Source of the DNA: Sitta carolinensis
Taxonomy: Eukaryota > Chordata > Aves > Passeriformes > Sittidae
Reading direction: 5' to 3'
Assembly (NCBI GenBank): GCA_032173965.1
Contig: CM063310.1
Location: forward strand, 1,489,735-1,553,734
DNA: 64,000 nucleotides
Position numbers and translations under genes: made by a program. Under the pieces are notes generated by a model that worked only from the letters and a program-made list of their open reading frames with translations, made no database searches and was not told where the DNA came from. Below, one piece after another: positions 1 to 60,148 of the stretch (position 1 is its first letter; each line of letters starts with the position of its first letter).

Positions 1-420
1 CCACTCGGAAGCCGGACCCGGTGAGCGTGTCCCTGTCCCCCTGTCCCTGTCCCTGTCCCCATTCCTGTCCCAGTCCCCGTGTCCCGGTCCCGGTCCCTGT
101 CCCGGTGTCCCCGTGTCGCACTCACCCACTCGGAAGCCGGACCCGGTGAGCGTGTCCCTGTCCCCCTGTCCCTGTCCCGGTCCCCATTCCAGTCCCGGTG
201 TCCCTGTCCCTCCTGTCCCGGTCCCGGTCCCTGTCCCGGTGTCCCCGTGTCGCACTCACCCACTCGGAAGCCGGACCCGGTGAGCGTGTCCCTGTCCCCC
301 TGTCCCTGTCCCGGTCCCCATTCCAGTCCCGGTGTCCCTGTCCCTCCTGTCCCGGTCCCGGTCCCTGTCCCGGTGTCCCCGTGTCGCACTCACCCACTCG
401 GAAGCCGGAGCCGGTGAGCG
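1..420. repeat. 134-bp minisatellite spanning the LTBP3 exon 1 splice donor
   Basis: Four copies of the motif CCACTCGGAAGCCGGA start at 1, 126, 260 and 394, so the unit is about 125-134 bp. Read on the minus strand, each copy holds the last coding bases of LTBP3 exon 1, a GTGAGT donor and the start of the intron. Only the copy at 394 is joined to the rest of the exon. The filler is C-rich pentamer/hexamer sequence (CCTGTCC, CCGGTCC). Confidence 0.9.
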
Positions 421-632
421 TGTCCGCCGCGTGCCCGTTCTCTCCGATCAGGGTCATGTTGGAGCCGGGCTGGCACGAGTCCCGGCACAGCCCCTTCAGA
501 CACGTCCTCCGGCAGATCAGGGGGGCGAAGACCACCTTGAAGCGCTCCCGGGCCACGGCCGCGCCCCCCCCGCGCCCCCCCCAGCGCCGCCAGCGCCGCC
601 AGCGCCGCCCACAGCCCCCCCCAGCGCCACAT
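394..632 (-). CDS. LTBP3: Latent TGF-beta binding protein 3, first coding exon (partial gene)
   Basis: LTBP3 is a secreted fibrillin-like matrix protein that binds the TGF-beta latency peptide. The exon encodes a start with a leucine/alanine-rich signal peptide ([22 protein letters not shown] at 632-630), then, in another frame, [20 protein letters not shown] and [20 protein letters not shown], which match the conserved LTBP3 N-terminus. It ends at a GTGAGT donor (393-388). Signal peptide and mature sequence are one base out of register. Two eight-base C runs at about 567-585 lie between them and are the likely place for a missing or extra base. The remaining exons lie beyond the left edge. 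Paralogues LTBP1, 2 and 4 fit less well, as far as I recall them. Confidence 0.85.
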
Positions 633-1789
633 GCTGCCCCCGGGACCCCCGGGACCCCCGGGACCCCCGGCCCCGACCCCGCGGCGGGCGGCGGCTCCGG
701 CCCGGCCCGTGAGGACCCCTCGGGAGGGGGGGTCCCGGACGCTGGGGGCCCTCGGGGGGGCTCGCAGTGGCCTGGGAGCCTTGAGAGGGTCCCGGGTCCC
801 CTCCTGGGGGGGGTCCCGGCTGCCGCCCCCTCTCGAGAGGCTCCCCCCGAGGGTCGCGCCCAGCCCAGAGGCCGAGGGTCCCCTTTTTGGGGGTCTCGGG
901 GCTCCGGGGTCCCCTGGCCGGACGCGGGGTCCCCTCGGGGTGGTGGGGGGGGCTGTCCCGGAGGCCGCAGCCCCCCTGCCGGGAGCTGGGGTCCCCCCCG
1001 GGGGTGTCCCGGGCTCCGGGGGTCCCCTCGGCGGGCGCGGGCTGCCCTCGGGGTGTCCGGGCGGGGGCGGGGGGCTCCCGGCGCAGTCCCGCGCTCCCGC
1101 GGCCGCCTGGGATGGCGCTGGGCTGGGGGGAGCGGGGGGGGGGGGGCCCGGGCGGGGGAGGGGGGCGGGGGCCGGGCCCTGGGTCCGCTCCAGGAATTGG
1201 GGGGGGCGGGCGGGGGGTGGGGGAGGGGAGGAGCCCGGATGGCCGGGCCGGTTCCAGCGCCGGGCACGGAACCCGGGCAGGGGCGGGCGGGAACAGGGGG
1301 GGGACGGGACCCCCGAAACTTTTGGGGTTTGTCCCGCGGAGGGGGTGGGAACCTCCTGGAGCCCCCCCGGGAGGGGGGACGGGCGTGCTGGGAGCCCCCC
1401 CAAACTTTTGGGATCACCCATGGGGGTCTGCGGGCCTCTGGAACGCCTGAGAGACCCCCCAAACACACACATAGAGAAACGGGGACCCCCCCCCTAAAGC
1501 CCTGGGACCCCCCCAAGGGAGATGGAGCCCCCTCCCCAAAACCCCCCGAATGCCAAAACCCCGCACGGGGGGAGGGGGGCGATGGGATCCCCCCAACGCT
1601 GGGACACCCCCCCCCCCACCAAGGTGGAAAGGACCCCCCCAAAGCGCGGGGACCCCCTTGATGGGGGCGGACGGGACCCCCCCAATCCCAGAGACCCCTC
1701 CAAGGGGGGGTGTGGGACCCCCAAACACAGCTGCCTCTCCCCCCAGCCCCCCCCCAAGGCAGCACGAGGCGGTTTTGGGGTCCCGGGGT
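633..1789. other. Spacer upstream of LTBP3, GC-rich, no gene seen
   Basis: This is C/G-run-rich sequence between the LTBP3 start and the MAP3K11 poly(A) signal. The long open frames on both strands are composition artefacts made of Pro/Gly/Arg. The part next to 632 must hold the LTBP3 5' UTR and promoter, but I see no specific box there. From about 1300 to 1760 there is irregular repeat of the GGGACCCCCCCAAA type. Confidence 0.5.
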
Positions 1790-1795
1790 TTTATT
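1790..1795 (-). terminator. AATAAA poly(A) signal, probable MAP3K11 3' end
   Basis: TTTATT on the plus strand is AATAAA on the minus strand, about 330 bp downstream of the MAP3K11 stop codon at 2122. No other minus-strand gene ends here. Confidence 0.65.
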
Positions 1796-2121
1796 TGGTC
1801 TCAGCCGCCCCCCGACCCTCCCGGACCCCCGTCCAGTGTCGGGACCGCCCGGGGGCGGGGCTCCCCCTGAGGGGGCGGGGCCTCAGCGCGCCCACCAATC
1901 AGGGCGGAGCTTCCTGGTTTGCCCCAGGAGGGGGGCGTGGTTTCCTGCCGTAACGCCCCGCCCAGGAGGGGGCGGGGCTTCTGTAATGCCCTTTGCTTTG
2001 ACCAATGGCGCGTCCGCGTGGGGGGGGCTTCCGCCGCCGCAGCTGTCAGTCACGGCCCGGATGGGGCGTGGCTCGCGCGAAGGGCGTGGCTTCCTGCTGT
2101 CAGTCCGTCCTTCGCGGCCGC

Positions 2122-10272
<8,151 letters not shown>

Positions 10273-12333: not shown

Positions 12334-21650
<9,317 letters not shown>

Positions 21651-22822: not shown

Positions 22823-25800
22823 ATGGCGGGGCTGAAAACGGCGAGCGGGGAGGAGATCGATGGCTCCTTCGAGCTGCTGGGTGGAGGTGGAGGAGGAGGA
22901 GGAGAGCGGGGCCGAGGGACAGGAGGGGCAGGTCCAGGGTGTGGGGCAGAGTGTGGGGCAGGTACAAGATGTGCAGGTCCAGGGTGTGGGGCAGAGTGTG
23001 GGGCAGGTCCAGGGTGTGGGGCAGCCCCGCGTCCTCACCCTCTGCGTCACCGGGGAGCTGCCGGTCGGGGCTCTCCTGCACCGCATCGCGGGAGCCCTCG
23101 GTGAGTGACGGGCAGGGGGCGAGCGGGGAGACCCCTGGGATCCACGGACCCATGGCCGGACCCATAGCCGGACCCATAGCAGTGACCCCATAGCCCTGAC
23201 CCCATAGCACTGCCCCATAGCACTGCCCCATAGCACTGACCCCATAACACTGACCCCATAGCACTGACCCATAGCACTGACCCCATAGCACTGCCCCATA
23301 GCACTGACCCCATAACACTGACCCCATAGCCTGACCCCATAGCACTGACCCCATAGCACTGCCCCATAGCACTGACCCATAGCACTGACCCCATAACCCT
23401 GACCCCATAGCACTGCCCCATAGCACTGCCCATAGCACTGACCCCATAGCACTGCCCCATAGCAGTGACCCCATAGCCCTGACCCCATAGCACTGACCCC
23501 ATAGCACTGACCCCATAACCCTGACCCATAGCACTGCCCCATAGCACTGACCCATAGCACTGACCCCATAACCCTGACCCCATAGCACTGACCCCATAGC
23601 ACTGACCCATAGCCCTGACCCCATAACCCTGACCCATAGCACTGCCCCATAGCACTGACCCCATAGCACTGACCCCATAACCTGACCCATAGCACTGACC
23701 CATAGCACTGACCCCATAGCCCTGACCCCATAGCACTGCCCCATAGCCCTGACCCCGTAGCACTGACCCCATAGCCCTGACCCCATAACCTGACCCCATA
23801 GCACTGACCCCATAACCCTGACCCCATAGCACTGCCCCATAGCACTGACCCATAGCACTGCCCCATAGCACTGACCCCATAGCCCTGACCCATAACCTGA
23901 CCCCATAGCACTGACCCCATAACCCTGACCCCATAGCACTGCCCCATAGCACTGCCCCATAGCCCTGACCCCATAACACTGACCCCATAGCACTGACCCC
24001 ATAACTGACCCATAGCCTGACCCCATAGCACTGACCCCATACACTGACCCCATAGCACTGACCCCATAGCACTGACCCCATAGAACCCTAGCCCCATAGC
24101 ACTGACCCCATAGCACTGACCCCATAGCCCTGACCCCATAGCACTGACCCCATAACCTGACCCCATAGCCCTGACCCCATAACCCTGACCCCATAGCACT
24201 GACCCCATAGCACTGACCCCATAGCACTGACCCATAGCACTGACCCCATAGCACTGACCCATAGACTGCCCCATAGCCTGACCCCATAACACTGACCCCA
24301 TAGCACTGACCCCATAACCCTGACCCCATAGCACTGACCCCATAGCACTGACCCCATAGCACTGACCCACCATGACCATACTGACCCCATAGCACTGACC
24401 CCATAGCACCCTGAACCCCATAGCCCTGACCCTAGCACTGACCCCATACCCCCATACCTGACCCCATAGCCTGACCCCATAGCACTGACCCCATAGCCCT
24501 GACCCCATAGCCTGACCCCATAGCACTGACCCCATACCCTGACCCTAGCACTGCCCATAAGCCCTGACCCCATAACGCCCTGACGCCCATAGCACTGACC
24601 CCATAGCACTGACCCCATAGCCTGACCCCATAGCACTGACCCCATACACTGACCCATACCCTGACCCCATAGCACTGACCCCATAGCCCTGACCCCATAG
24701 CACTGACCCATAAGCCTGACCCCATAGACCCTGACCCCATAGCACTGCCCCATAGCCTGACCCCATAGCCACTGACCATAGCCTGCCCATAGCACTGACC
24801 CCATAACCCTGACCCCATAGCACTGACCCCATAGCCCTGACCCATAGCACTGACCCATAGCACTGCCCCATAGCACTGACCCCATAGCACTGACCCCATA
24901 GCACTGACCCCATAGCACTGACCCCATAGCACTGACCCATAGCCTGACCCCATAGCACTGACCCCATAGCCCTGACCCCATAGCACTGACCCCATAGCCC
25001 TGACCCCATAGCCCTGACCCCATAGCCCTGACCCCATAGCACTGCCCATAGCACTGCCCCATAGCACTGACCCATAGCACTGACCCATAGCACTGACCCC
25101 ATAGCCTGACCCCATAGCACTGACCCCATAGCCTGTACCCCATAGCCTGACCCCATAGCACTGACCCCATAGCACTGACCCCATAGCACTGACCCCATAC
25201 CTGACCCCATAGCACTGCCCCATAGCACTGACCCATACCCTGACCCCATAGCACTGACCCCATACACTGACCCTACCTGACCCATAGCCTCCCATACCTG
25301 CCCCCACCCCTCCTGCCCCAACACTGACCCCACTTCCGCCCCCTCCCCACCCCCGTTGACCCCCGGGACAGTTGTGCCCCCGCGTGTGTGTCGCTCAGCG
25401 GTGATGGGGGTGTTTATTTTTAGGGCGGTTTTGGGGGGGAAATCCGGCCCGCGGTGGGGGAGGGCAGCTCTTATCAGGGGGTCCCGGGGTCCCCCCACTT
25501 CCCGACCCCCCCCGGGGCTCCCCCTGGCCGGGCCGATAAGGGACCCGGGGGCTGTAAATAGCTCAGGGAGTGACCCCCCCACCCCTGAGCCCCCCGGATG
25601 CGGTTTGGGGGCGCAGGGTGACCCCCAAGAACCCCCCACTCCAGTTCAGCAGCCCCCAGACCCACCCCGGCCCCTCACAGATACCCTGGGCCAGCCCAAA
25701 ACCCCCCCATAACCCCATTAGAGCCCCCCCATAACCCAGTAAAGACCCCCAGCCCCCAAACCCCCCCATAACCCCATTAGAGCCCCCCATAACCCCCCCA

Positions 25801-28800
25801 TAACCCCGTTAAAGCCCCCCGATAATCCCATTAAACCCCTCTGGGGTGGTTTTGGGTACACACATCCCCCCAGCCCCCATGACGCCCCCATAACCCCATT
25901 AAAGCCCCCTGGGCTGGTTTTGGGGTACCAGAGCCCCCAGCCCCCATAACCCCATTAAAGCCCCCCCATAAACCGGTTAAATCCCCCCGGGGTGGTTTTG
26001 GGGCGCCCCTCCCCATCCCCCGGTTTTGGGTGCCCCCTCCCCATCCCCCGGGTGATTTTGGGGTGCCCTCCGTCCCCGGGTGTTTGGGTCCCCTCCCCAT
26101 CCCCCGCGTGTTTGGGCGCCCTTCCCAGCCCCCGGGTTTTAGGGTGCCCTCCCAGCCCCCAGGGTGTTTTGGTGCCCATCCCCCGGGTATTTTGGGTGCC
26201 CCCTCCCCATCCCCCCGCGGTGGTTTTAGGGTGCCCTCCCCATCCCCGGGTGTTTTTGGGTGCCCCCTCCCCATCCCCCGGGGTGATTTTGGGGTGCCCC
26301 TCCCCATCCCCCGCGGTGGTTTTAGGGTGCCCCTCCCCATCCCCCGGGGTGTTTTTGGGGTGCCCCCTGCCCAGCCCCCCCTCTCCGCAGGCTCCCCCCG
26401 GGACTGGTCGCAGCACGCTCTGTGGTGGGAGCAGGGGCGCCGCTGGCTCCTGAGCCCCCAGCCCACCCTGGACGCGCTGGGGGTCGGGGGGGGGGCGCGG
26501 CTCCGCTTCGCCCCCCGGCACCGCCCCCTGCGGCTGCGCCTGCCGGCCGGGGGGGTCCTCAGGCTGCGGCTCGACTTCGCCGCGACCCCCGGGCGGGCGG
26601 TGGCGAGGGTCTGCGGGCTGCTCGGTGGGTCTGGGGGCGTCATTGGGGGGGTCTGGGGGCTGCTCGGTGGGTCTGGGGGCGTCACTGCGGGGTCTGCGGG
26701 CTGCTCGGTGGGTCTGGGCGCGTCACTGCGGGGTCTGGGGGCTGCTCGGTGGGTCTGGAAGGGTCTAGGGGTGTCACTGGGGGGGCTAGGGGGGTCTGGG
26801 GGTCAGTGGGGGGGTCTGGGGGGGTCTGGGGGCGTCACTGGGGGGGTCTGGGGGCTGCTCGGTGGGTCTGGGGGCGGCTCGGTGGGTCTGGGGGATCCTG
26901 GGGGATCATTGGGGGTCTGGGGGTTTCCCGGGAGGGCTCGGGGCTCCCCGGGGTCCCGCGCTGATTTTGGGGGGGGGGGGGTCCCGCAGGGCTCCGGCAC
27001 CCCGAGGAGCTCTCGCTGCTGTGGGGGGAGGGGCGGGAGGAGGGGGAGGGGCCCAAAGGCCGCGACCCCCGCCCCGCCCCCCCCGACCTGGACCTGACTC
27101 ACCTGCGGCCGCGGGCAGGTAAGGGGGGAGGGGGCGCTGGGGCTGGAACCCCCCCCCCGTGCCTCCCCCACCCCCCCCCCTCTTCTCCCCACCCCCCCAG
27201 GTGAAGCCCCTCCCCCCGCGCTGCCCCCGAGCTGCTCCAGCCCCTGAGGAGCCCCGACGGGGGGGGCGCGACCCCCGGGACCCCCCCGGAGCCCCCCGGC
27301 TCCGCCCTGCAGCGGCGGGCGGGGCTGCACGCGCGGTGAGGGGCGGGGCCTGCGGGGGCGGGGTCACGGTGGGCGGGGCATGGAGGGGGCGTGGTCACCA
27401 TGGGTGGGGCCTGGATGGGGCGTGGTCGCGGTGGGGCGGTACTTGGGTGGGCGTGGTCACGGTGGGCGGAGGCTTTTTTGTGGGCGTGTTCACAGTGGGC
27501 GGAGCCTGGATGGGCGGGGTTTTGGGGGTGTGGTTTGGGGTTAGGGCGTGGTTCGGGTGTGTTTGGGGCGGGGTTTTGGGGGCGTGGCTTTTAGGGGTGG
27601 GGTTTGGGGCGTGGTTCAGGGGCGGAGTTTAGGGTTCGGGTGTGGTTTGGGGTTCAGGTGTGGGCTGGGTGTGTTTGGGGCGTGGTTTGGGGTGGGGTTT
27701 GGGGGTGTGGCTTTTAGGTGTTTGGGGTTCAGGTGTGTTTTGGGGCTGGGGTTATGGTTCGGGTGTGGTCAGGGGTGGTCTGGGTGTGGTCAGGGTGTGG
27801 TTTTGGGGTTTGGGTGGGTGTTGGGGGTTCGGGTGTGGTCAGGGCGTGGCCGAGCGCTGGCCCCGCCCCGCAGGTGGCTGGACGTGGGGCGCTCGCTGCT
27901 GGAGCAGGGCGTGGCCGAGGAGGAGGAGGCTGCTGCTGCGCTTCAAGTACCCCTGTGCCATGGGGCTGGACCCCCAGGTACCCCAAAAAACCGCCCGGGT
28001 GTCCCCAAAACCCGCCCAGGTACCCCCAAAACCGCCCAGGTACCCCAAAAACTGCCCGGGTGTCCCCAAAACCCGCCCAGGTACCCCAAAAACCGCCCAG
28101 GTACCCCAAAAACTGCCCGGGTGTCCCCAAAACCCCCCAGGTACCCCCAAAACCCCAGTACCCAAATGCCCGGTGTCCCAAAACCCCCAGGTACCCAAAA
28201 CACCGCAGGTACCCCAAAAACTGCCCGGGTGTCCCCAAAACCCACCCAGGTACCCCCAAAACCCGCCCAGGTACCCCAAAAACCTGCCCGGGTGTCCCCA
28301 AAACCCGCCCAGGTACCCCAAAAACCTGCCAGGTACCCAAAAACTGCCACGGGTGTCCCCAAAACCACCCAGGTACCCCAAAACCTGCCCAGGTACCCCA
28401 AAATCCACCCAGGTATCCCAAAAACCACCCAGGTGTCCCCAAATCCACCCAGCTACCCCAAAACTCCTCTGGGGGTCCCCAAACACCCCAAGAATGCTCA
28501 GACCCTCTGTGTGACTGCCCGGGAGGGGCTTTGGGGGTCCCTGGGAGGGGTTTGGGGGTCCTAGAAGGGTTTTTGGGGTCCCTGGAAGGGTTTGGGGTCC
28601 CGGGGGATGCTGGAGGTCCCTGGGAGGGGCTTTGGGGGTCCCTGGGAGGGGTTTGGGGGTCCCTGGGAGGGGTTTGGGGGTCCCTGGGAGGGGTTTGAGG
28701 GTCCCTGGGAGGGTTGGGGGTCCTGGGGGGGCTTTAGGGGTTCCTGAAATGGTTTTGGGTGTCCTGGGTGGGGGGTTCTGGGGGTCCCTGGGGACTGTTG

Positions 28801-38597: not shown

Positions 38598-46488
<7,891 letters not shown>

Positions 46489-47647: not shown

Positions 47648-49558
47648 TCAGAGCCGGGGCGCGGCGCCACAGCCCGGGAGGGGGGGGGGGGGTCCCAAGA
47701 AGAGGCCGCCCCCTCCCCCATCAGGACCCCCCACCCCCCCCGTGGGGCACCTGCCCCCCCGGTAGCCCCGCACTCCGGGGGGGGGCGGCGGGGGCGGCGG
47801 CGGGGGGTACACGGTGCGGATCCCGCCCTCCTCGGGGGTCCGCAGCGGCCGCAGCGCCAGCCGCCCCCCACCCCCACCCCCTTTGGGGGGCGGCAGCGGC
47901 GGCGCCCCCAGCGCCCCTCCCCCCCTCCTCCTCCTCCTCCTCCTCCTCCTCCTCCAGCAGCCCCCCAGCACCCCCAGCAGCACCCCGGCCGCCGCCGCCG
48001 CCGCCGCCCGAGCGCCGCCGCCGGGGGCAGCGCGGGGGGCGCATCCCGGCCGGGGCTCCGGGGGCTCCGGGCTGGGGGGGCTCCCCGGCCCCCGCCCGGG
48101 CCTGGGCGCAGAGCGGGGGGGCTGCGGGCGGCTCCAGCGCCGCCAGGCACACGCGGTACGGGGCGCGGGGCTGCAGCGCCCGCACCACGTACTCGCCGCG
48201 CTCGCCCCGCACCAGGGTCTCGGTGACCGAGCCCCCCCCGGGCCGCAGCCAGCTCAGCCGCAGCGACGCCCCCGGAGGGGCCGGGGGCCACCGCACCCGC
48301 AGGGCCCCCCCCGGAGCCGCCTGCACCCACAGCCCCGGCGTGGCGGCGGCCGCGGCTCCCGGCGACGCGGCCAGCGCGGGGGACACGGCGGCGGCCGCGC
48401 CGGGGTTCGCCCCCCCGGCTCCCCCCACGGGGCTCTCGCACGCGTCCATCTCGGCGCGCAGCTCGCCCACCGGCAGCCCCCGCAGCCGCGCCGGCGCCTG
48501 GCACAGCAGCCCCCGCACCTCGAGGCGCGGCGGGGCGCGGCGGCGCAGCCAGTCCCGCAGCCAGGCCAGGTTGCAGCCGCAGAACCAGGGGTTGTTGCGC
48601 AGCCCCAGGTGGCTCAGGCTGCCCAGATCGTCGAAGAGCCCCCTGGGCAGCGTGGTCAGGTTGTTGTCCGACAGGTCCAGCCGCTCCAGCGCCCGCATCC
48701 TGGCCAGCGCCCCGGCGGGCACGTGGCTGATGGCGTTGGCGGCCAGCGAGAGCCGGCGCAGCCGAGCCCGGGGCAAGTTGGCCGGCGGCGCCGCCAGCGC
48801 GTTGCGGCCCAGCGAGAGCTCGCTGAGGTTGCCCAGGCGGCTGAAGGTGTCGTCGGCCATGCGCTGGTTGGCCAGCAGGTTCCCGTCCAGCACCAGGCGC
48901 CGCAGCGCCGGCAGCCCCTCGAAGGCGCGCAGCGGGATGGTGTGGATGCGGTTGTCGTCCAGGCGCAGCTCCTCCAGCGCCGGCGGCAGCCCCGCGGGCA
49001 CGCTGCTCAGGTGGTTGCGCGAGAGGAAGAGGAGGCGCAGCCGGCGGTTCTCGGCGAACGCGTCCTCCTCGATGCCGGCCGCCGACACGGAGTTATCGTC
49101 CAAGTGCAGGCGCTCGAGCAGCGGCGCCCTCGCCAGCGCCCGGCGGCAGAGGCCGCGCACGTTGTTCTCCTGCAGGTGCAGCTCCCGCAGCGCCGGCGGC
49201 AGGTGAGCCGGCAGCTGCTCCAGCGCGTTGGCGTACAGGTAAAGCACCCGCAGCGCCGGCAGCCGGCCCAGGCGAGCCGGGATGCCCGCGTCGCCGATGC
49301 GGTTGTTCTGCAGGAAGAGCGTGGTGGCGCCGGGCGGGAGCCCCTCGGGCACGGCCGTCAGCCCGCGGTCGTTGCAGTAGACGCGGCCGCCGGCGCAGCG
49401 GCACACGGCCGGGCAGGCGCCCACGGCGGCGGCGCTCACCAGGGCCACGGTGGCCACGGTAGCCACGGTGGCCACGGCGGCGGGCAGCAGGCGGGGCGGC
49501 CCCCCCCGCGGGGCCCGGGCTACGGGAGGGACGGGGAGGGGCGGCGAGGGGGGGCCAT
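47648..49558 (-). CDS. FLRT1: Fibronectin-leucine-rich transmembrane protein 1, single coding exon
   Basis: Type I membrane adhesion/guidance receptor binding latrophilins, Unc5 and FGFR. N-terminal LRR cap ACPAVCRC and [16 protein letters not shown]; about ten LRRs ([102 protein letters not shown]); C-cap [20 protein letters not shown]; Fn3 part ([19 protein letters not shown]); then, in another frame, an alanine-rich transmembrane helix [19 protein letters not shown] with an arginine stretch and tail [20 protein letters not shown]. The ATG at 49558 (GGGGCCATGG context) is one base out of frame with the ectodomain across a seven-C run. A second frame change lies between Fn3 and the helix, about 48030-48120. 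The end of the tail is not resolved. FLRT2 and FLRT3 are less likely given the STIP1/OTUB1 neighbours. Confidence 0.9.
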
Positions 49559-49599: not shown

Positions 49600-50140
49600 G
49601 TTAGGGTAGAGGGGGGGTGGGGGGTGCAGCCCCCCCCCCCTTCCCCAGGTTCCCCTTGGGGGGTTGAGGGTGGCCTCTCACCTTTTCTCCCAAGCCTGAG
49701 CTCAAATGTGAGGTACGACCCCCCCCCTCGGCTGTAGGACCCCCCCCATTGAAGGGGGAATTGGGACCCCCAGTGTGACCCCACAGAAAGGGCAGGGAGC
49801 CCCAAACCCCATGATGGGGCACCCCCCATTATAGGACACCCCCTCCCCATTATAGAGCACCCCCATTATAGAGCGCCCCTCCATTATAGCCCCCCCATTA
49901 CAGGACACCCCCTCCCCATTATAGGACACCCCTCCCCATTATAGGACACCCCCATTATAGGACACCCCCTTCCCAATAATAGCCCCCCCCCATTATAGAG
50001 CACCCCTCTATTATAGCCCCCCCATTATAGAGCACCCCCTCCCCATTATAGCCCCCCCCCCCCAAAACTTCCTGAGCCCCCTCTCCCTTGTAGGGGACCC
50101 CCCCGACCCCCTACCCAGACCCTGCACACCCCAGACCCCC
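49600..50140. repeat. CATTATAGGACACCCC array upstream of FLRT1
   Basis: 49820-50060 has about 14 units of 15-22 bp (CCCCATTATAGGACACCCCC, CCATTATAGAGC). The flanks are C-rich unique sequence. It lies in the inferred FLRT1 intron. Confidence 0.88.
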
Positions 50141-50182
50141 CCCCTCCCCGGCCGTCCAGGTGTGCTGGGGGCGGGGCCTTAC

Positions 50183-50290
50183 CTGGCTCCTCTCGGTCCT
50201 GGCGTCGCGGGCTCCCGGCTCGAGGCCGTGGCTACCGGCGCCGGGGCTCCATGGCCCCCCCGCCCCGCCGGGGGGGCCGCTGTGGGTGGG
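50183..50290 (-). other. Probable FLRT1 5' UTR exon
   Basis: The minus strand shows GAGGAGCCAG|GTAAGG, a strong donor at 50182-50181, preceded by CCGAGAG and GC-rich non-repetitive sequence. There is no conserved coding sequence. Assignment to FLRT1 is inferred from strand and from an acceptor-like CCCTCCCGTAG at 49520. Confidence 0.45.
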
Positions 50291-50399
50291 GAGGGGGCGT
50301 CAGCCACGGGGGGGGTCCTCATGTCACAGCCCCCCCCCCTCCCCCTCCCTGTGACACCCGCCAGGACTCAGGTGTCCGGCCCCTCCCCCCGCCCCTCCT

Positions 50400-51235
50400 G
50401 GGGCCAATTAGAGCCTCGCTAATGACCCCCCCTCATTAGCAGCGCCTCGTTAAGGACCCCCCCCGGGACCCCCTTGCATCAGCCCCGGCCTCGGGGGGGC
50501 ATGTGACCGCCCCCCCCCCCAGGAGGGGACACAGGTGACACCCCCGGGACCCCCCCGCTAAGCGTTGGGGGGGTTTTGGGGGGCTTGGGGAGGTTTGGGG
50601 GGTCCCGTGGAGATTGGGGGGGGTCGCTGCTCTAAACCCTGATCCTGCCCCCCCCCCCCCCCCCCCGCGCATCCTGGGGTCCCGGGGGGGTTTGGGGGGG
50701 CTTGGGGAGTCCGGGGGTGCTGGGGGGTGTTTGGGGGGGGTCAGGATCCCCCGGATGCCCGGGCCCCTCTCCCCTCCCCTCCCTCCCCGCCCCCAGCCCG
50801 GACGGTGCCTCCCCCTCCCCCCCCCCGAGCATCCCCGGGGACCGGCAGGGTTTGGGGGGGGTCCCGGGGGTCCCGGTGGGGTTTGGGGAGGCCGGGGGGG
50901 GTGCTCAGGGTGGGGGAGGGGGCTGCGCTTGGGTGTCCCCCTCCTCTCCCGGACGCCCGGGCCCCTCCCCCCGGCTGGAGCATCCCCGGCAAGTGGGGGT
51001 GGGGACACCGCGGATTTGGGGGGGTCGGGGGGGGTCGGAAGGGATTAGAGGGGGGTCCCTGGGTGTGGGGGGGTCGCTCCGAGGGGCTACGGGCGGGAAC
51101 GGGCCCCGCTCCGGCCGAGCGGACCCTCCCCCCCCCAACCCCGGGCTGGAGCATCCGCGGGTACCCGAGCGGGGGAGGGGTCGGGGTCGGGTTTGGGGGT
51201 CCCGGGGGGGTTCGGGGGGGTCGGGGGGTCCTTAC
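50400..51235. other. FLRT1 5' intron, CpG-rich
   Basis: Contains four spaced copies (ending near 50670, 50830, 50975, 51160) of a module with CCGGATGCCCGGGCCCCT or GGAGCATCC(C/G)CGG followed by GGGGTTTGGGGGGGTC, unit about 150-190 bp. No gene recognised. Confidence 0.5.
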
Positions 51236-51310
51236 CGGGTGGCTACCGGCCGGCGCGTGCGGGCCCGGCGGCGGCGGCGGCGGCTGCGGGCGTGGGAAGG
51301 CGGCGGCAGA
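51236..51310 (-). other. Probable FLRT1 first exon (5' UTR)
   Basis: The minus strand reads GGTAGCCACCCG|GTAAGG (donor 51235-51234) after a GCCGCCGCCGCCGCC stretch, typical of a CpG-island first exon. Inferred, not proven. Confidence 0.4.
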
Positions 51311-51334
51311 GGGGGGGCCTGGGGAGGGGGGGCC

Positions 51335-51530
51335 GGGCCGGGCCCGCCCCCCGGTGCGGGGGGATTTGGGGAGGGGGGGAAAGGAGCGGGCCCGCCCCCC
51401 GGTGCGGGGGGATTTGGGGAGGGGGGGAAAGGAGCGGGCCCGCCCCCCGGTGCGGGGGGATTTGGGGAGGGGGGGAAAGGAGCGGGCCCGCCCCCCGGTG
51501 CGAGGGGATTTGGGGAGGGGGCGGCGGGGG
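51335..51530. repeat. 56-57 bp array upstream of the FLRT1 first exon
   Basis: Four near-identical copies with GGGCCCGCCCCCCGGTGCGG, GGGGATTTGGGGAGG and GGGGGAAAGGAGC. Confidence 0.95.
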
Positions 51531-51779
51531 AGGGGGGATGTGAATCTGGGGCATGAGGGGAATTTGGGGAGGGGGCGGTGGCTCTTCCCTGCCTCGGTTT
51601 TTGGGAGGGGGGGTGGGAATCGTATGGGGACCCCCCCTCAATCTCACATGAGGGGTCCTCCGGTCCCCCCCGGTGTGGGGAGGGGCGGATTTGGGGGTCC
51701 TGGAGGGGGAGGGTCCTGCCCTGGGCTGGATGAGGTCTGGGACCGCCCCCTCCCCAAAACTGCCCCCCCCCCGGACCTC

Positions 51780-52135
51780 TCACTGCGTTCCTCCCCCAGC
51801 CCCATTTACCCCCCGGCCTCAGAGACCCCCGAGGGTCCCCAAACTTCAACCCCCAGCCCCAACTGCCCCAACAGGGGGTCCCCAACCCCTCCACTGCCCC
51901 CAACGGGGGTCCCGAGCTCCTCCCACCCCCTCCTCACCCCAATCTCCCCCTCCTCACCCCAATCTCCCCCTCCTCACACCCAAACACCCCCTCCCCAGCC
52001 CAAAATCCCCCTCCTCACCCCCAATCTCCCCCACCCCAAACTCCCCCTCCTCACCCCAATTTCCCCCTCCCCAAACTCCCCCAACCCCCCCACCACCCCT
52101 AAAGCCCCAACCCCCCTCCCCTCCCTCCCCCTCCC
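51780..52135. other. C-rich spacer, no gene recognised
   Basis: CCCCAATCTCCCCCTCCTCA repeats (51930-52080). A plus-strand 3' UTR could lie here because it ends in a plus-strand AATAAA. No macro-domain or other coding match seen. Confidence 0.5.
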
Positions 52136-52137
52136 CA

Positions 52138-52143
52138 AATAAA
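52138..52143 (+). terminator. Orphan plus-strand AATAAA
   Basis: CCCCAAATAAACTCGC, 26 bp from the OTUB1 signal on the opposite strand, the layout of two convergent gene ends. In human the convergent neighbour is MACROD1, but none of its coding exons were found. Confidence 0.5.
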
Positions 52144-52168
52144 CTCGCTCAGCACTCGGGGCCACATC

Positions 52169-52174
52169 TTTATT
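52169..52174 (-). terminator. OTUB1 poly(A) signal AATAAA
   Basis: TTTATT on the plus strand, 111 bp beyond the OTUB1 stop codon. Confidence 0.85.
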
Positions 52175-52284
52175 GAGGAGGGGGCTCCGGCGAGGGGCGG
52201 GCGGGCAGGGCAGGGCTGGGGGTGGGTGGGCGCTGCGGCGGCGGGGCCGGGGGTCTCGGGGGGTCCCGGGGGGGGGTCTGGGGG

Positions 52285-55200
52285 TCACTTGTAGAGGATG
52301 TCGTAGTGGCCGGGGCGGTAGAGGAGGCAGACGCGCGGCTGGGAGCCCTCGGGGAACACGTGCGGGTTGGTGGCGCCGCCCTCGCCCCGGTCCATGTACT
52401 CCACCAGGATGGAGACGTGCAGCGCCCGCGCCAGCGCGATGATGTGGATGTGGTCACTCTCCTTGGCCATGGGCTCCACCTCCTGCGGACGGACAGAGGG
52501 ACAGAGGGACAGATGGACAGAGGACAGGGGATGTGGTCACTCTCCTTGGCCATGGGCTCCACCTCCTGCGGACGGACAGAGGGACAGAGGGACAGATGGA
52601 CAGAGGGACAGGGGATGTGGTCACTCTCCTTGGCCATGGGCTCCACCTCCTGCGGACGGACAACAACAGACGATGCACACAGACAGGTGTCACTCTCCTT
52701 GCATGGGCCCACCTGGGAGGCAAGGACGAGGGAAGATGGCACAACAGGATGTGGTCACTCTCCTGGCATGGCTCCCCTCGAGGAAGACAGACGACGATGG
52801 ACACACAGACAGGATGGGACCTCTTGGCAGGGCTCACCTCTGCGACGACAGAGACAAGGGACAGATGGACAGAGGACAGGATGTGGCACTCTCCTTGGCC
52901 ATGGGCTCCACCTCCTGCGGACGGCACACAGAGGGACAGATGCAGGGACAGATGGGCAAGGGACAGATGGACAGAGGACAGATGGACACACGACAGGGAT
53001 GTGGTCACTCTCCTTGGCCATGGGCTCCACCTCCTGCAGACAGATGGACACACGGATGGACGGACAGACGGACAGACAGGGGGACAGATGGACAGACAGA
53101 TGGACAGACAGACAGACGGGGGGACACCGAGGGGGTCGGGGGTCACCGGGGTGAGGGGCACAGGGCTGGGTGAGGGCACGGCCAGGCCAGGTGGGCTTGC
53201 ACAGGTGAGTGACACCTGCCAGGGCACGTGGGGGGCACTTTGGGGTCTGGGGGTCCCGCAGGGCCCCCGGGGCGGTGACACAACCCCGAGTGCCCCACAC
53301 CTGCTGGCAGAGCCCCCAGGTACCCCAGGTGAGGTGACAGAGGTGCCCCAGGTACCTCAGTGCCCAGGCACAGTGACACGTGCCAGCTCCAGGTGCCCTA
53401 AGCACAGTGAGAGGAGTGCCCCAGGTGTCTGTACCTGCTGGCAGAGCCCCCAGGTGCCCCAGGTACCCCAAACACAGTGACAGGAGTGCCACACACCAAC
53501 CCCAGGTGCCCAGGTGCCTGTACCTGCTGACAGAACTGCCAGGTACCCCTCACACAGTGACAGAGGTGCCCCAGGTAGCCCACACACGGTGACACGTACC
53601 ATCCCCAGGTGACAAGAGTGCCACATGCCAGCTCCAGGTCCCCCAGGTGCCCAGTGCCCAAGCCCCCAGGTGCCCAGGTACCCAGTGCCCAGGTACCCAA
53701 TGTCCAAGCCCCCAGGTACCCAGGTGCCCAGTGCCCAAGCCCCCCAGTGCCCAAGCCCCCAGGTGCCCAGTGCCCAAGCCCCCCAGGTGCCCAGTGCCCA
53801 AGCCCCCCAGGTGCCCAGGTGCCCAGTGCCCAGGTACCCAGGTGCCCAGTGCCCAGGTACCCAAGCCCCCCAGGTGCCCGTACCTGCTGGCAGAACTCCT
53901 TGATGCTGCGGCCGCCCTCGAGGAACTGCTCGAAGAAGCGCCGGTGGCGCTGCAGGCAGCCCGAGGTGAGCAGGCGCAGGTAAACCACCAGGTAATCCGA
54001 GGTGGCCGGCTCGTTAAAGGCTGCCAGCAGCTCCGGCAGCGGCACCCGGCGCTCCACGCGCTCGATGAGCTCCATCAGCTGTGGGGACACACCTGTGACA
54101 CACCTGGGACACACCTGTGATATACCTGTCACACCTGGGACACGCCTGTCACACCCATACACACACCTGTGTCACACACCTGGCGCTCCACCGCGCTCGA
54201 TGAGCTCCATCAGCTGTGGGGACACACCTGTGACACACCTGGGACACACCTGTGATATACCTGTCACACCTGGGACACACCTGTCACACCCATACACACA
54301 CCTGTGTCACACACCTGGCGCTCCACGCGCTCGATGAGCTCCATCAGCTGTGGGGACACACCTGTGACACACCTGGGACACACCTGTGATATACCTGTCA
54401 CACCTGGGACACGCCTGTCACACCCATACACACACCTGTGTCACACACCTGGCGCTCCACGCGCTCGATGAGCTCCATCAGCTGTGGGGACACACCTGTG
54501 ACACACCTGGGACACACTTGTCACACCTGTGATATACCTGTCACACCTGGGACACGCCTGTGATATACCTGTCACACCTGGGACACACCTGGGACACACC
54601 TGTGATATACCTGTCACACCTGGGTCATACCCATACGCACACCTGTGTCACACCTGTCACACACCCCCGGCGCTCCACACGCTCAATGAGCTCCATCAGC
54701 TGTGGGGACACACCTGGGACACACCTGTCACACCTGTGATATACCTGTCACACCTGTGATATACCTGTCACACCCATACACACACCTGTGTCACACACCT
54801 GGCGCTCCACGCGCTCGATGAGCTCCATCAGCTGTGGGGACACACCTGGGACACACCTGTCACACACACCCGGCGCTCCACGCGCTCGATGAGCTCCATC
54901 AGCTGTGGGGACACACCTGTCACTCCTGGGACACACCTGTCACACCTGTGATATACCTGTCACACCTGTGATATACCTGTCACACCCATACACACACCTG
55001 GGTCACACCTGTGTTACACACATCCAGCTCTCCATGAGCTCAATGAGCTCCATCAGCTGTGGGGACACACCTGTCACACCTGTGATACACCTGTCACACC
55101 TGGGACACCTGTGATATACCTGTCACACCCATACACACACCTGGGTCACACCTGTGTCACACACCTGGCGCTTCACGCGCTCGATGAGCTCCATCAGCTG

Positions 55201-58200
55201 TGGGGACACACCTGTGACACACCTGTGATATACCTGTCACACCTGGGACACACCTGGGACACACCTGTGATATACCTGTCACGCCTGGGTCATTCCCATA
55301 CACACACCTGTGTCACACCTGTCACACACACCTGGCACTCCACGTGCTCGATGAGCTCCATGAGCTGTGGGGACACACCTGGGACACACCTGTGATATAC
55401 CTGTCACACCTGGGTCACACCCATACACACACCTGGGTCACACCTGTGTCACACCTGAGTAATCCGTGTCATACCTGTGTCACCCATTGTCCACACACAC
55501 ACACCTGTGTTGCACTTGTCCCACCTGTGTCCCACCCACCCACACCTGTCCCCCCTGTCCTGTGTCCCACCTGTGTTCCCACCTGTGTCCCACCTGTCCC
55601 CGCACACCTGTGCCCCGTGCCCACCGTGTTGTGGAAGTCCTCGATGGTGAACTCGGTGAAGCCCTGCGCCACCAGCTCCTCCTTGCTGCGCGCCGACACC
55701 TCCTTGAACCTGGGGGGCACGGGGGGCTCGGGGGGGCTCGGGGGGCTCGGGGGGGCACGGGGGGGCACGGGGGGCTCGGGGGGGACGGGGGCTCGGGGGG
55801 GGCAAGGGGGGCTCGGGGGGGTCCCAGGGGACGGGGTGGGGACACCCGACACCCGGGGGTCTCGGGGGTGATTCTGGGGGTTTTGGGGTCTTGGGGGGTT
55901 TAGGGGTCTAGGGTGTTTGGGGTCTATGGGGGGGTTTTGGGGGTCTCTGGTGTTTGGGGGTCTCTGGGGGGTTTTGGGGGTCTCTGGGTTTTGGGGCTCT
56001 CTGGGGGTTTGGGGGTCTCTGGGTTGTTGGGGGTCTCTGGGTTTTTGGGGGTCTCTGGGTGGTTGGGGGTCTCAGGGTTGTTTTGGGTGGTCTCAGGGTG
56101 TTTGGGGGGCTCTGGGTGTTTTGGGGCTGGTGGGATCATTGGGTCCTCAGGGTGTTTGGGGGTGATTCCTGGGTGGTTTTGGGGGTCTCTGGGGGTTTTG
56201 GGGGCTCCCCAGGGTTGTTTTGGGGTCCGGGGGTTTGGGGGTCTCTGGGGGGGTTTTGGGGGTCTCTGGGTGGTTTGGGGTCTCGGGTTGTTTTGGGGGT
56301 CTCTGGGTGGTTTTGGGGGTCTCTGTGTTTTGGGGGTTCAGGGTTGTTTTGGGGGTCTCTGGGTGTTTTGGGGGTCTAGGGTTGTTTTGGGGGTCTCTGG
56401 GTGGTTTGGGGGTCTCGGGGTGTTTTGGGGGTCTCTGGGGGTTTTTGGGGTCTCAGGGTTTTTTGGGGTCTCTGGGTGTTTTTGGGGTCTCAGGGTTGTT
56501 TTGGGGGTCTCAGGGTTGTTTTGGGGGTCTCTGGGTGGGTTTGTGGTTTGGGGGTCTCTGGGGGTTTTGGGGGTTCGGGTTGTTTTGGGGTCTCTGGGGG
56601 GTTTTGGGGGTCTCAGGGTTGTTTTGGGGGTCTCAGGGGGGTTTTGGGGGTCTCAGGGTTGTTTTGGGGGTCTCTGGGTGGTTTGGGGGTCCCCGGGGCT
56701 GTTTTGAGGGCTCTCAAGGTGTTTTGCAGATCCCCAAGAATATTTTTGGTCCCCCAGGGATATTTTTCCTCCAGCTGTTTGGTCCCAGGTGGTTCCCTCC
56801 CAGGCCGTGTTTGGGTCTCTCAGGGTGTTTTCCCCTCCCCAGGTGTTCTTTCCCCTCCCCAGGTGTATTTTCCCCTCCCCAGGTGTGTTTTCCCCTCCCC
56901 AGGTGTATCTTTCCCTCCCCAGTGTGTTTCCCCTCCCCAGGTGTGTTTCCCCCTCCCCAGGTGTATTCTTTCCCCTCCCCAGGTGTGTTTTCCCCCTCCC
57001 CAGGTGTTTTTTCCCCTCCCCAGGTGTATTTTCCCCTCCCCAGGTGTTTTCCCCCTCCCCAGGTGTATCTTCCCCTCCCCAGGTGTATTTTCCCCCTCCC
57101 CAGGTGTATTTTCCCCCTCCCCAGGTGTATCTTTCCCCCTCCCCAGGTGTGTATTTTCCCTCCCCAGTGTATCTTTCCCCTCCCAGGTGTATTTTCCCCT
57201 CCCCAGGTGTATCTTTCCCCTCCCAGGTGTATCTTTCCCCTCCCCAGGTGTGTTTTCCCTCCCCAGGTGTATTCTCCCATGTTTCCCCTCCCCAGGTGTT
57301 TTTCCCCCCCCCAGGTGTATTTTCCCCTCCCCAGGTGTATTTTCCCCTCCCCAGTGTGTTTCCCCCCCCAGGTGTGTATTTCCCCTCCCCAGGTGTATCT
57401 TTCCCCTCCCCAGGTGTATCTTTCCCCTCCCCAGGTGTATTTTCCCCCTCCCCAGGTGTGTTTCCCCCTCCCCAGGTGTGTTTCCCCTCCCCAGGTGTAT
57501 TTTCCCCCTCCCCAGGTGTGTTTCCCCCTCCCCAGGTGTATCTTTCCCCTCCCCAGGTGTGTTTCCCCCTCCCCAGGTGTATCTTTCCCCTCCCCAGGTT
57601 ATCTTTCCCCTCCCCAGGTGTATTTTCCCCTCCCCAGGTGTGTTTCCCTCCCATGTATTTCCCCCTCCCCAGGTGTGTTTCCCCCTCCCCAGGTGTGTTT
57701 CCCCCTCCCCAGGTGTATCTTTCCCCTCCCCAGGTGTGTTTCCCCCTCCCCAGGTGTATCTTTCCCTCCCCAGGTGTGTTTCCCCCTCCCCAGGTGTGTT
57801 TTGGGGCACACACCTCTGCAGCTCCTGCCCGTCCTCCAGCAGCGCCTCCAGGTGCGCGAAGCCGAAGGCGCGGTAGAAGCAATTCCCGTCCGGCCGCGTC
57901 TTGCGGATGTAGGAATATTTCTGCAGCAGGTCCTGGGGGGGCAGGGGCACGTGGGGACACCGGGAACCGGGGGGACACCGGGGAGGGACACCGGGGGGAC
58001 ACCGGGGGACACCGGGGGGGACACCGGGGGACACTGGGGGGACACCGGGGGACACTGGGGGGACACCGGGGGGACACCGGGGGGACACCGGGGGGGACAC
58101 TGGGGGGACACCGGGGGACACTGGGGGGGACACCGGGGGACACTGGGGGGACACCGGGGGGACACGGGGGACACGGGGGGACAACCTGGGGACACGGGGA

Positions 58201-60148
58201 CACCCGGGGACACCCAGGACAGACCAGGGGACAGGGGGACACCGGGGAGAACTGGGGACACGGGGAGACCCCCGGGGGGACAGGGGAATGTGGGGGCACC
58301 GGGGAGGGGATGGGGACACCCTGGGACAGCCCGGGACAGATCAGGGGGACAGGGGACACGGGGAGACCCCCGGGACACCCTCAGGACAGACCTGGGGGAC
58401 ATGGGGACATGGGGAGAACTGGGACACCCCTGGGACAGGACTGGGGACACGGGGACACTGGGGGGAACTGGGGACACCCTGGGGAACAGGGGACTGGGGA
58501 CACAGGACACGGAGGGGAATGGGGACCCCTGGACACCCCCGGACAGACAGGGGACACGGGCACAGACAGCCAGGGGACCCAGGCTGCAGCGGACCCTCAG
58601 GCCCCCCAGTGCCAACTCTGCGGCACCAGTGACACCCCAGGACATGCCCCAGTGCAGCCCCGTGCTGCCCAGTGCCCCCTGCCCCGTCCCAGTGCCCCCC
58701 AGTGCCACACTGCTGCTGTCCCCAGTGCCCCCAGTGCCCCCAGTGCCCCCCAGTGCCACACTGCTGCTGTCCCCAGTGCCCCCCAGTGCCCCCCAGTGCC
58801 CCCCAGTATGCCTGGGCTGCAGCCAGCCCTGTCCCCGTGTCCCAGAGGGGGTCCCAGTATGTCCCAGTGCCCCCCAATATCCCCCAGCACCCCCCAGTCC
58901 TGCACCGGGGCTTTTCCCAGTAACTCCCAGTGCTGTCCCCAGTCCACACTGGTATCCCAGTCCATCCCAGTCCATCCCTGTCCCTCCCAGTCCATCCCGG
59001 TCCATCCCTGTCCCTCCCAGTCCCATCCCAGTTCCCCCAGTCCCATCCCAGTCCCATCCCAGTCCATCCCAGTTCCCCCAGTCCCATCCCAGTCCCATCC
59101 CAGTCCCATCCCTGTCCCTCCCAGTCCATCCCAGTCCCCCCAGTCCCATCCCTGTCCCTCCCAGTCCATCCCAGTCCCCCCCAGTCCCATCCCTGTCCCT
59201 CCCAGTCCCCCCCAGTCCCATCCCAGTCCCATCCCAGTCCCCCCCAGTCCCATCCCAGTCCCATCCCAGTCGCTCCCAGTCCCATCCCAGTCCCATCCCA
59301 GTCCCATCCCAGTCGCTTCCAGTCCCATCCCAGTCGCTCCCAGTCCCATCCCAGTTCCCCCAGTCCCATCCCAGTCCCATCCCAGTCCCATCCCAGTTCC
59401 CCCAGTCCCATCCCAGTTCCCCCAGTCCCATCCCAGTCCCATCCCAGTTTCCCCAGTCCCATCCCAGTTCCCCAGTTCCCCCAGTCCCCCCCAGTCCCCC
59501 CCAGTGCCCCCCAGTCCCCCCCAGTGCCCACCTTGATCTTCTCCTGGTACACGTGGTCATCCTCGGCGTACTCCTTGTAGAGCTCGGACAGCTCCAGGCG
59601 CTCCGACACCAGCGGGTTCTGCACGGCGATCTGGGGGCACCGGGGGGGTCACGGCCCTGGGGACCCCCGGGGGGGTCACGGCCCTGGGGACCCCCGGGGG
59701 GGGCGGCTCGGGGGGTCCCGGGGGGGATTTGGGGCGGGGGGGCCGCACCTCCTGCTGGATCCGGTCCTGCTGCGCCATGATCGCCTCGTCGTAGGCCAGG
59801 CAGTTCACGCCTGCGGGGACACCGGGGGTCACCGGGAGGGTCCCGGGGGGGTCCCACCGGGAGGGTCTGGGGGCTCAGGGGACCCCCGAGAGGCGGCGAG
59901 GCCGGGCGGAGCGGGGAAGGCTCGGGGTATTTGCGGTGGGTTCGGGGAACCGGGGGCGGCCCCGGGAGCTGCCGAGGTGAGCGAGGCCCTCCCGGCAGGA
60001 GGGCAACCGCGGCGCGGGGGAGAAGCGGGGTGGGTGTTGGAGGGGATCCCGGCCCGCCGGGGCTGGGTGAGGGGGCTCCATCGGTACCGTCGGCATCGCT
60101 GCCGCCCAGCGGCTCCGGCTGCGGCTGCTGAGGCTCCTCCGCCGCCAT
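52285..60148 (-). CDS. OTUB1: Otubain-1 deubiquitinase, complete, seven exons
   Basis: OTU-family cysteine protease, Lys48-specific, that also blocks E2 enzymes without catalysis. Exons: 60148-60088 (MAAEEPQQPQPEPLGGSDAD), 59810-59749 (GVNCLAYDEAIMAQQDRIQQ), 59630-59532 (IAVQNPLVSERLELSELYKE), 57932-57814 (KYSYIRKTRPDGNCFYRAFG), 55709-55625 (FKEVSARSKEELVAQGFTEF), 54078-53884 (LMELIERVERRVPLPELLAA; TSDYLVVYLRLLTSG) and 52482-52285 (EVEPMAKESDHIHIIALARA; LLYRPGHYDILYK, stop TGA). Lengths sum to 819 nt in one open frame, 272 codons plus stop; human is 271 residues from memory. Catalytic Cys92 (in DGNCFYRAF), Asp89 and His266 (in RPGHYDI) are present. No frame break was found. Acceptors of the last two exons are repeated many times in the adjoining introns. 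Confidence 0.97.
52483..53110 (-). repeat. Tandem copies of the OTUB1 last-exon acceptor and start
   Basis: On the minus strand, GCAGGAGGTGGAGCCCATGG and CCAAGGAGAGTGACCACATC (EVEPMAKESDHI) recur with exon-start positions at 52565, 52649, 52914 and 53033; two or three decayed copies lie at 52690-52850. The real exon starts at 52482. Unit about 83 bp in the fresh copies. The rest of the unit is GGACAGAGGGACAGATGGAC. Confidence 0.93.
53280..53880. repeat. CCCAGGTGCCCAGTGCCCA array in OTUB1 last intron
   Basis: 53630-53880 has units of about 20-30 bp with AAGCCCCCCAGGTGCCCAGT and CCCAGGTACC, seeded at the exon 6 donor (minus strand GCAG|GTACGGGCACCTGGGG). 53280-53620 is a looser 60-70 bp series with TGTACCTGCTGGCAGA, i.e. 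decayed copies of the exon 6 3' end and donor (FCQQ|GTACAG). Confidence 0.88.
54079..55460 (-). repeat. Nine tandem copies of OTUB1 exon 6 5' end with acceptor
   Basis: On the minus strand each unit (about 134 bp in the fresh copies) has CCCCACAG, then CTGATGGAGCTCATCGAGCG and CGTGGAGCGCCAG, then GTGTGTGACACAGG. Exon-start positions: 54213, 54347, 54481, 54699, 54831, 54902, 55056, 55197 and 55364; the real exon starts at 54078. The remaining unit sequence is ACAGGTGTGTCCCAGGTGTG-type. Most copies offer acceptor, 33 nt (LMELIERVERQ) and a GT donor. Confidence 0.95.
55880..56700. repeat. GGGGGTCTCTGGGTGTTTTG array in OTUB1 intron
   Basis: About 38 units of 19-24 bp, with variants GGTCTCAGGGTTGTTTTGGG. 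No stops in one plus frame, giving a spurious Gly/Val/Ser-rich frame. Confidence 0.95.
56820..57805. repeat. CCCCTCCCCAGGTGTATTTT array in OTUB1 intron
   Basis: About 45 units of 20-22 bp (TTTCCCCTCCCCAGGTGTAT, TTTCCCCCTCCCCAGGTGTG). It ends at the donor of exon 4 (57814; minus strand CAGAG|GTGTGTGCCCC). Every unit on the plus strand, antisense to OTUB1, is a pyrimidine tract plus CAG|GT. Confidence 0.95.
57945..58560. repeat. GGGGGGACACCGGGGGACACTGG array in OTUB1 intron
   Basis: 57955-58230 is a regular array of 14-16 bp units (GACACCGGGGG). 58230-58560 is a decayed GGGGACACCGGGGAGAACTGG series, beginning at the acceptor side of exon 4. Confidence 0.92.
58640..59531. repeat. CCCAGT arrays seeded at the OTUB1 exon 3 donor
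   Basis: 58930-59531 has about 40 units of 10-20 bp (CCCAGTCCCATCCCAGTCCC). On the minus strand the array begins at the donor AAG|GTGGGCACTGGGGGGGACT. 58640-58880 is a CCCCCAGTGCC type with a 60-bp duplication containing CACACTGCTGCTGTCCCCAG. Confidence 0.93.

Follow-up and report, generated by a model that had tools for sequence, protein, structure and literature searches.

The tandem copying of exon edges into the introns of avian dot chromosomes has been named exon stuttering (Hron et al. 2026, PMC12954441). According to the sections of that paper used here, the phenomenon involves 115 genes and 236 introns, 190 of them on dot chromosomes; the exon part measures 20–187 bp (median 36), there are 1–44 copies (median 4), the copied source lies no more than 1 nt from the exon border in >90% of cases, and intron length varying between individuals is one criterion of the class. 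A literature search for the term found it in no work other than that of Hron et al. In this study, we analyzed a 64,000-nucleotide stretch of the passerine Sitta carolinensis (assembly GCA_032173965.1, contig CM063310.1, positions 1,489,735 to 1,553,734; hereafter the window, numbered from its first letter), in which introns of LTBP3, SIPA1, FERMT3, STIP1, and OTUB1 hold tandem copies of adjoining exon edges. These arrays are exon stuttering, with 19 copies at 6 of the 56 exons screened. The class being already named, the view of an earlier sequence-only reading of this stretch, that it had no named description, fails, recent though the paper is. We consider it likely that the arrays reflect tandem duplication blind to exon edges and sorted by purifying selection, on what is probably a dot-type microchromosome.

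The resemblance to the chicken dot-chromosome cases, as set out in those same sections (PMC12954441), is close: an exon edge with its donor or acceptor is copied in tandem through the adjoining intron while the exon stays intact, the units are imperfect and span tens to hundreds of bp, and the surroundings are GC-rich and gene-dense. Across the window G+C is 58–78% (2-kb steps), and Tandem Repeats Finder (TRF; 380 rows) assigns 53% of it to tandem repeats, which cover 74% of 33,616 intron bases versus 5.8% of exon bases, and heavy repeat cover of introns is likewise a trait of the published class. The copied source lies within about 1 nt of the border in five of the six exons; the BLASTN match of the STIP1 exon 13 copy ends 9 nt inside the exon, but a more sensitive scan shows the border crossed. 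There are also differences. The main text of Hron et al., in the parts consulted, names none of LTBP3, SIPA1, STIP1, OTUB1, FERMT3, and MAP3K11; it infers independent expansion in each species, whereas here one exon-intron join is common to predicted proteins of two passerine families; and the passages covered contain no test of edge preference, while edge placement was tested in the window. Intron gain by tandem genomic duplication, as far as described in the portions of two reports consulted (PMC4974935; PMC2891723), is similar in that a duplication over exon sequence creates new splice-site pairs, yet there a new intron appears within an exon and here extra exon pieces appear within an intron.

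Gene models were obtained by spliced alignment to human proteins, and together with Pfam scans they place in the window LTBP3 exon 1 (−), MAP3K11 (−), SIPA1 (+), FERMT3 (+), STIP1 (−), a leucine-rich repeat (LRR) gene (−), and OTUB1 (−). The exons (56) and edges (88, half of them acceptors and half donors) are those judged confident, some aligned exons having been dropped, merged, or trimmed by eye before counting (among them STIP1 42377 and 40699–40719, SIPA1 17548, several FERMT3 and MAP3K11 pieces); the LTBP3 exon 1 donor was placed by eye at 394, as the alignment row ran past it. A screen modelled on the published one, using BLASTN of the 56 exons against 50 introns and the LTBP3 flank with 20 mononucleotide shuffles, yielded 19 proximal copies, all above the best shuffle (38.2 bits): three at the LTBP3 exon 1 donor, two at the SIPA1 17094 acceptor, one each at STIP1 exons 13 and 6, four at OTUB1 exon 7, and eight at OTUB1 exon 6. 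Four distal matches also passed. The more sensitive edge scan detected a copy crossing the splice site by at least 8 nt at 15 of the 88 edges and none at 73. Chance similarity is therefore rejected, as the copies exceed every shuffle and the edge scan agrees. A mobile-element origin was set aside because the units read as local exon and intron sequence, although no search aimed at mobile elements was made.

Seven edges are strong: LTBP3 donor 394, SIPA1 acceptor 17094, FERMT3 donor 26624, STIP1 acceptors 39261 and 41801, and OTUB1 acceptors 52482 and 54078. The sequence-only reading had proposed units of splice site plus exon edge in LTBP3, SIPA1, STIP1, and OTUB1, and at six exons these stand above every shuffle. 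Its seventh case, SIPA1 18401 ("exon 8"), shows the same pattern with 8–14 exon nt only, and FERMT3, where the edge scan counts five copies, is a strong case that it lacked, in a fifth gene. Single weak matches at SIPA1 13292 and FERMT3 26990, 32492, 34919, and 36611 (scores 31–48) were not counted as arrays.

Eight arrays hold 37 exon-carrying copies (3, 5, 3, 3, 2, 6, 6, and 9), and share one architecture, a direct repeat of intron, splice site, and exon edge whose final copy continues into the exon. That only the outermost copy runs into the functional exon, as had been claimed, is true, but the geometry of any tandem duplication over one exon edge yields it. The LTBP3 exon 1 donor array (1–425, −) has a 134-nt unit with 32 exon nt, copied at 1–32 (cut by the window end), 126–157, and 260–291, the functional edge being 394–425. 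In SIPA1, the acceptor array before the exon at 17094 (16526–17124, +) carries 31 exon nt per unit in four decoys and one partial copy; that before the exon at 18401 (18113–18414, +) is weak, fails the BLASTN screen, and carries 8–14 exon nt (14 in the edge scan). The FERMT3 donor array follows the exon ending at 26624 (26607–26894, +), with 16–22 exon nt per unit, and a short case of 8 nt lies at FERMT3 27977. STIP1 has an acceptor duplication at exon 13 (39202–39428, −), with one clear decoy of about 60 exon nt, equal to the query length, and a weaker, older-looking second at 39523–39563, and an acceptor array at exon 6 (41779–42329, −) with six decoys, 23 exon nt per unit, and a 91-nt period. 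The two longest edge arrays belong to OTUB1: the exon 7 acceptor array (52446–53082, −), with six or seven decoys, 37 exon nt per unit, and an 83-nt period beside the exon, and the exon 6 acceptor array (54043–55413, −), with nine decoys, 33–36 exon nt per unit, and a 134-nt period for the copies nearest the exon. OTUB1 exon 6 also has short donor-edge copies (53301–53537, −), CAGCAG/GT at 53524, 53435, and 53301 (slash at the splice site), with 11–14 exon nt in the two scored by alignment. The 20–45 exon nt per unit first proposed was thus nearly right.

Are exon edges special? The sequence-only reading had suggested a mechanism restarting at exon edges, and an edge-targeted process, linked to transcription, splicing, or repair, would duplicate preferentially at exon borders. 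When each of 70 non-redundant intron arrays with period ≥20 was placed at random within its intron and allowed to reach as far as 60 nt into an exon, the expectation was that 6.3 ± 2.2 arrays would cross a confident edge by at least 15 nt; 6 did. When all arrays of an intron were packed jointly, the analysis being restricted to introns confident at either end (29 of them for periods ≥20), the expected crossings were 17.4, 12.7, 8.5, and 7.2 for periods ≥10, 20, 30, and 40, against 5 observed each time, a deficit significant for periods ≥10 and ≥20 only. A nearest-gap statistic (mean 0.35 vs. 0.5, 62 arrays, p 0.0001) was set aside in favor of joint packing, because multiple arrays within one intron push one another outward. 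With crossings at or below random placement, and no copy at 73 edges, an edge-targeted mechanism was rejected as the leading explanation and we regard it as unlikely; exon edges are not clearly special in the window, and a restart at them is not supported.

Several observations nonetheless weigh against duplication that ignores exon edges. If the overhang is capped at 20–25 nt, only 1.1–2.7 crossings are expected and the 6 observed become an excess (P 0.001–0.047); at 30 nt the result is borderline (P 0.112 and 0.047), and at 40, 60, and 100 nt there is no excess. Overhangs reach 37 nt in TRF rows and about 60 at STIP1 exon 13, and we therefore judge 40–60 nt the fair cap. Arrays of long period have more outer boundaries within 40 nt of a splice site than expected, 25 versus 17.7 for periods ≥30 and 23 versus 15.0 for periods ≥40 (P 0.001 or less). 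This pile-up is as expected of arrays whose growth stops only at an exon, but a mild preference for edges would have the same effect. The placement test is, moreover, weak, with 70 arrays in a single window.

Edge-blind duplication sorted by selection finds its counterpart in reading frame. The period is divisible by three in 7 of 8 array rows inside exons (7 loci) versus 121 of 362 elsewhere (Fisher p 0.003, approximate since TRF rows overlap and the 8 rows are 7 loci). Duplications do therefore hit exons, and chiefly those that keep the frame persist. Array rows that cross an edge have such a period in 2 of 10 cases; a duplication spanning an edge is free of the frame requirement because its outer copy is untouched. 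Exons thus look like selective fences rather than origins of arrays. Under the explanation that we favor, short tandem duplications would arise at a high rate throughout introns, whether through slippage, repair, or unequal exchange, and their breakpoints would fall without regard to exon edges. Purifying selection would then let wholly intronic units survive, would let units inside exons survive if the frame is kept, and would spare units lying over one exon edge, whose outermost copy remains joined to the remainder of the exon. After the first seeding, decoys would copy one another and decay like nearby intron.

Divergence among decoys was compared in four arrays, frayed or partial copies being excluded (four decoys used in OTUB1 exon 7, five of six in STIP1 exon 6, four of five in SIPA1 17094). 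In three of the four, exon parts diverge by substitutions at least as much as intron parts: 0.088 versus 0.030 in OTUB1 exon 6, 0.202 versus 0.106 in STIP1 exon 6, and 0.134 versus 0.104 in SIPA1 17094. By substitutions, selection on decoys was thus not found in the four arrays, except for an ambiguous OTUB1 exon 7, nor were the OTUB1 exon 6 decoys conserved above their intron flanks in the manner of cassette exons, though their gaps run the other way (0.03 vs. 0.35). Here too some evidence speaks against decay like nearby intron. The four well-kept OTUB1 exon 7 decoys differ at 0 of 219 exon-part versus 122 of 299 intron-part positions (three frayed decoys excluded); slippage of a (CTGTCC)n tract may be responsible for the contrast, and conversion from the exon or constraint could be as well. 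Throughout the four arrays, gaps are more frequent in intron than in exon parts (0.07–0.35 vs. 0.00–0.06), and with indels counted exon parts are more stable than intron parts.

Decoys also have in common changes that are absent from the functional copy: all three LTBP3 decoys hold one base unlike the functional exon, and six of nine OTUB1 exon 6 decoys read CCAG where the exon has CCGG. Much of the growth is therefore of decoy from decoy. In OTUB1 exon 6, the farther a copy lies from the exon, the lower the identity of its intron part (rho −0.92, p 0.0004), and the newest copies therefore adjoin the exon, as an edge-targeted process would have it; neither OTUB1 exon 7 (rho −0.49, p 0.33) nor STIP1 exon 6 (rho +0.3, p 0.62) shows such polarity. 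Hypervariable minisatellites are GC-rich tandem arrays with 10–100 bp units and polar turnover. The OTUB1 exon 6 array is like them in having its newest copies at one end; unlike them, the units of the window hold exon edges and splice sites, and polarity is seen in one of three arrays tested. By eye, the founding joins of OTUB1 exon 6 share GGTG, a microhomology that we do not claim as evidence.

A second alternative, raised as a possibility in the parts of Hron et al. consulted (PMC12954441), is that G-quadruplexes or other secondary structures drive the expansions. In a comparison made without a shuffle control, the share of bases lying in G-quadruplex motifs is 45% for arrays outside exons, 29% for the remaining non-exon sequence, and 8% for exons, and five of the edge arrays have a cover of 0.26–0.56. 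The cover is 0.00, however, in OTUB1 exons 6 and 7 and 0.05 in STIP1 exon 6; these arrays can therefore at least be maintained without such motifs, and we hold this account to be quite unlikely.

The sequence-only reading was right that the arrays yield decoy splice sites; many of these score like functional ones. On a matrix built from 44 acceptors and 43 GT donors of the window itself (the FERMT3 33172 donor, without GT, being excluded), decoy acceptors score 5.8–8.5 in OTUB1 exon 6 (nine; functional 7.5), 5.4–12.4 in OTUB1 exon 7 (four of seven scored; 12.4), 7.4–10.5 in SIPA1 17094 (four; 9.7), 3.6–8.8 in STIP1 exon 6 (four of six scored; 8.0), 5.6–13.5 in SIPA1 18401 (three; 15.2), and 5.4 in STIP1 exon 13 (14.0); one unscored STIP1 exon 6 decoy has CAAG where the exon border has CAGG. 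The functional median is reached by just 2.3% of 1461 intronic AGs, and two LTBP3 decoy donors equal the functional donor. Judged by sequence, many decoys would be splice-competent and their products mostly frame-shifted or stopped: used as exon extensions, 20 of 22 decoy acceptors from five arrays run into a stop, while the remaining pair, from OTUB1 exon 7, shifts the frame.

OTUB1 exon 6 is the exception. There the junction of the exon piece with the next unit creates a donor, mostly CAG/GTGTGT with a score of 10.0 (93rd percentile of functional donors), and six of nine decoys form a stop-free 33-nt piece with acceptor and donor, in phase 0 at both ends. On the minus strand, these pieces read LMELIEHVECQ (55332–55364, donor 10.0), LMELIERVKRQ (55165–55197), LMELIERVERR (54870–54902, with a weaker donor CGG/GTGTGT, 7.1), and LMELIERVERQ three times (54799–54831, 54449–54481, and 54315–54347), LMELIERVKRQ and the three LMELIERVERQ pieces having the CAG/GTGTGT donor. 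The remaining three decoys depart from this layout, one measuring 34 nt, one having its nearest donor at 35, and one lacking a donor before 48; decoy acceptors are spaced 71–218 nt apart. The decoys are potential in-frame cassette exons, possibly a new observation. It is a long shot, but stuttering might act as a nursery of new exons, in which some of these near-identical 33-nt phase 0-0 microexons of passerine OTUB1 would be spliced in, each copy adding 11 residues to one of the helices of this deubiquitinase, and birds would differ in the number of copies.

Records from other birds bear on these copies. The OTUB1 protein comparison rests on 120 of 1463 matches, and a second protein listing on 120 of 741. 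The window protein shares 98% identity with the sequence that represents a 56-member cluster named Agelaius phoeniceus (red-winged blackbird, Icteridae) and, among the matches listed, 93–98% with further named records from birds, the aligned part being 82% or more of its length; by eye, its first 114 residues are identical to those of Pseudopodoces humilis. Two of the 120 matches listed (of 1463) hold tandem exon-6 edges. Pseudopodoces humilis (Paridae) reads LMELIERVERR-VCVTGVTQ-LMELIERVERW-VCVTGVTQ-LMELIERVERR-VPLPEL, and Rhabdornis inornatus (Rhabdornithidae) has two exon-6-edge copies. The window decoy at 54902 reads LMELIERVERR-VCVTGVSQ, with the same join as these two passerine records, while their copy number and unit length (19 and 22 codons) differ from those of the window. 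It therefore seems that the founding duplication predates the divergence of the families, or else recurred at the same spot. Exon 5 is missing from both records, which are probably artefacts of gene modelling, but they suggest that the copies exist in the DNA.

For exon 7, a house finch (Haemorhous mexicanus) "isoform X3" ends ...EVEPMSKESDHIHIITV...GGGAHVQGE, and a partial Loxia curvirostra record also ends ...DHIHIITV. In the house finch record, the final nine residues agree at all but one position with the frame-shifted exon-7 edge GGGAHGQGE; of the four exon-7 decoys of the window that were read, three have a stop directly after it. A search with the house finch tail gave 65 matches, and every other one covers about half of the tail at most, bar one mammalian record at 41% identity. 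A service to splicing, with decoys used as cassette exons or decoy acceptors and kept by selection, would accommodate this isoform, as well as the OTUB1 exon 6 decoys with functional-like acceptors and a donor exactly 33 nt on. We nevertheless find such a role very unlikely, since in three of four arrays the exon parts are not conserved above intron parts by substitutions, three of nine OTUB1 exon 6 decoys lack the 33-nt layout, and the extensions meet stops or shift the frame. An assembly or base-calling artefact is extremely improbable: the region 52660–52870 is, by eye, rich in single-base losses within otherwise regular repeats, as in unpolished long reads, and STIP1 has apparent frameshifts, but unit lengths vary by gene, copies differ by point changes, two passerines have tandem LMELIERVERR copies with the same join, and one such intron was checked in raw nanopore reads by Hron et al., in the part of their study consulted (PMC12954441).

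Other features of the window may be noted. In SIPA1, the exon 17330–17418 contains 2.5 copies of an 18-nt unit as well as a run of CTG; both are in-exon expansions that keep the frame. Parts of STIP1 (coding 42614–42624, 40947–41038, and 39642–39737) are out of frame or align poorly with human STIP1, through assembly indels or as a decaying gene; in the MAP3K11 region 7400–8400 the SH3-coding part is not recognisable, the kinase and later parts alone aligning well. Very long arrays of short period occur at 23161–25273 in a FERMT3 intron (14-nt CCCATAGCACTGAC, about 156 copies) and upstream of OTUB1 (60315–62118, purine-rich, with 10/19/29-nt periods). A complete U2 spliceosomal small nuclear RNA gene (62432–62622, −; 187.9 bits) lies ~2.3 kb from the OTUB1 start. 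The LRR gene has an LRRNT domain and leucine-rich repeats in a single frame at about 48588–49418 (−) and is, we assume from human synteny, probably FLRT1. The human counterparts of the window genes we take to lie at 11q13, and human PYGM presumably lies there too. In chicken, PYGM is on dot chromosome 37 (Hron et al. 2026, PMC12954441, in the part consulted), and we infer that the window probably lies on an avian dot-type microchromosome.

Overall, our findings extend exon stuttering to a passerine and to five named genes, LTBP3, SIPA1, STIP1, OTUB1, and FERMT3. The window allows the special status of exon edges to be tested on a small scale, and its largest edge arrays are without G-quadruplex motifs. 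At least eight bird OTUB1 models lack exon 5 (P0005, P0008, P0033, P0069, P0093, P0097, P0099, and P0124), most with intron-like residues in its stead; stuttering introns perhaps break short-read assemblies and gene prediction at this point, and stuttering may account for several odd OTUB1 gene models in birds. OTUB1 is, finally, a gene where stuttered splice sites could give in-frame protein variants.

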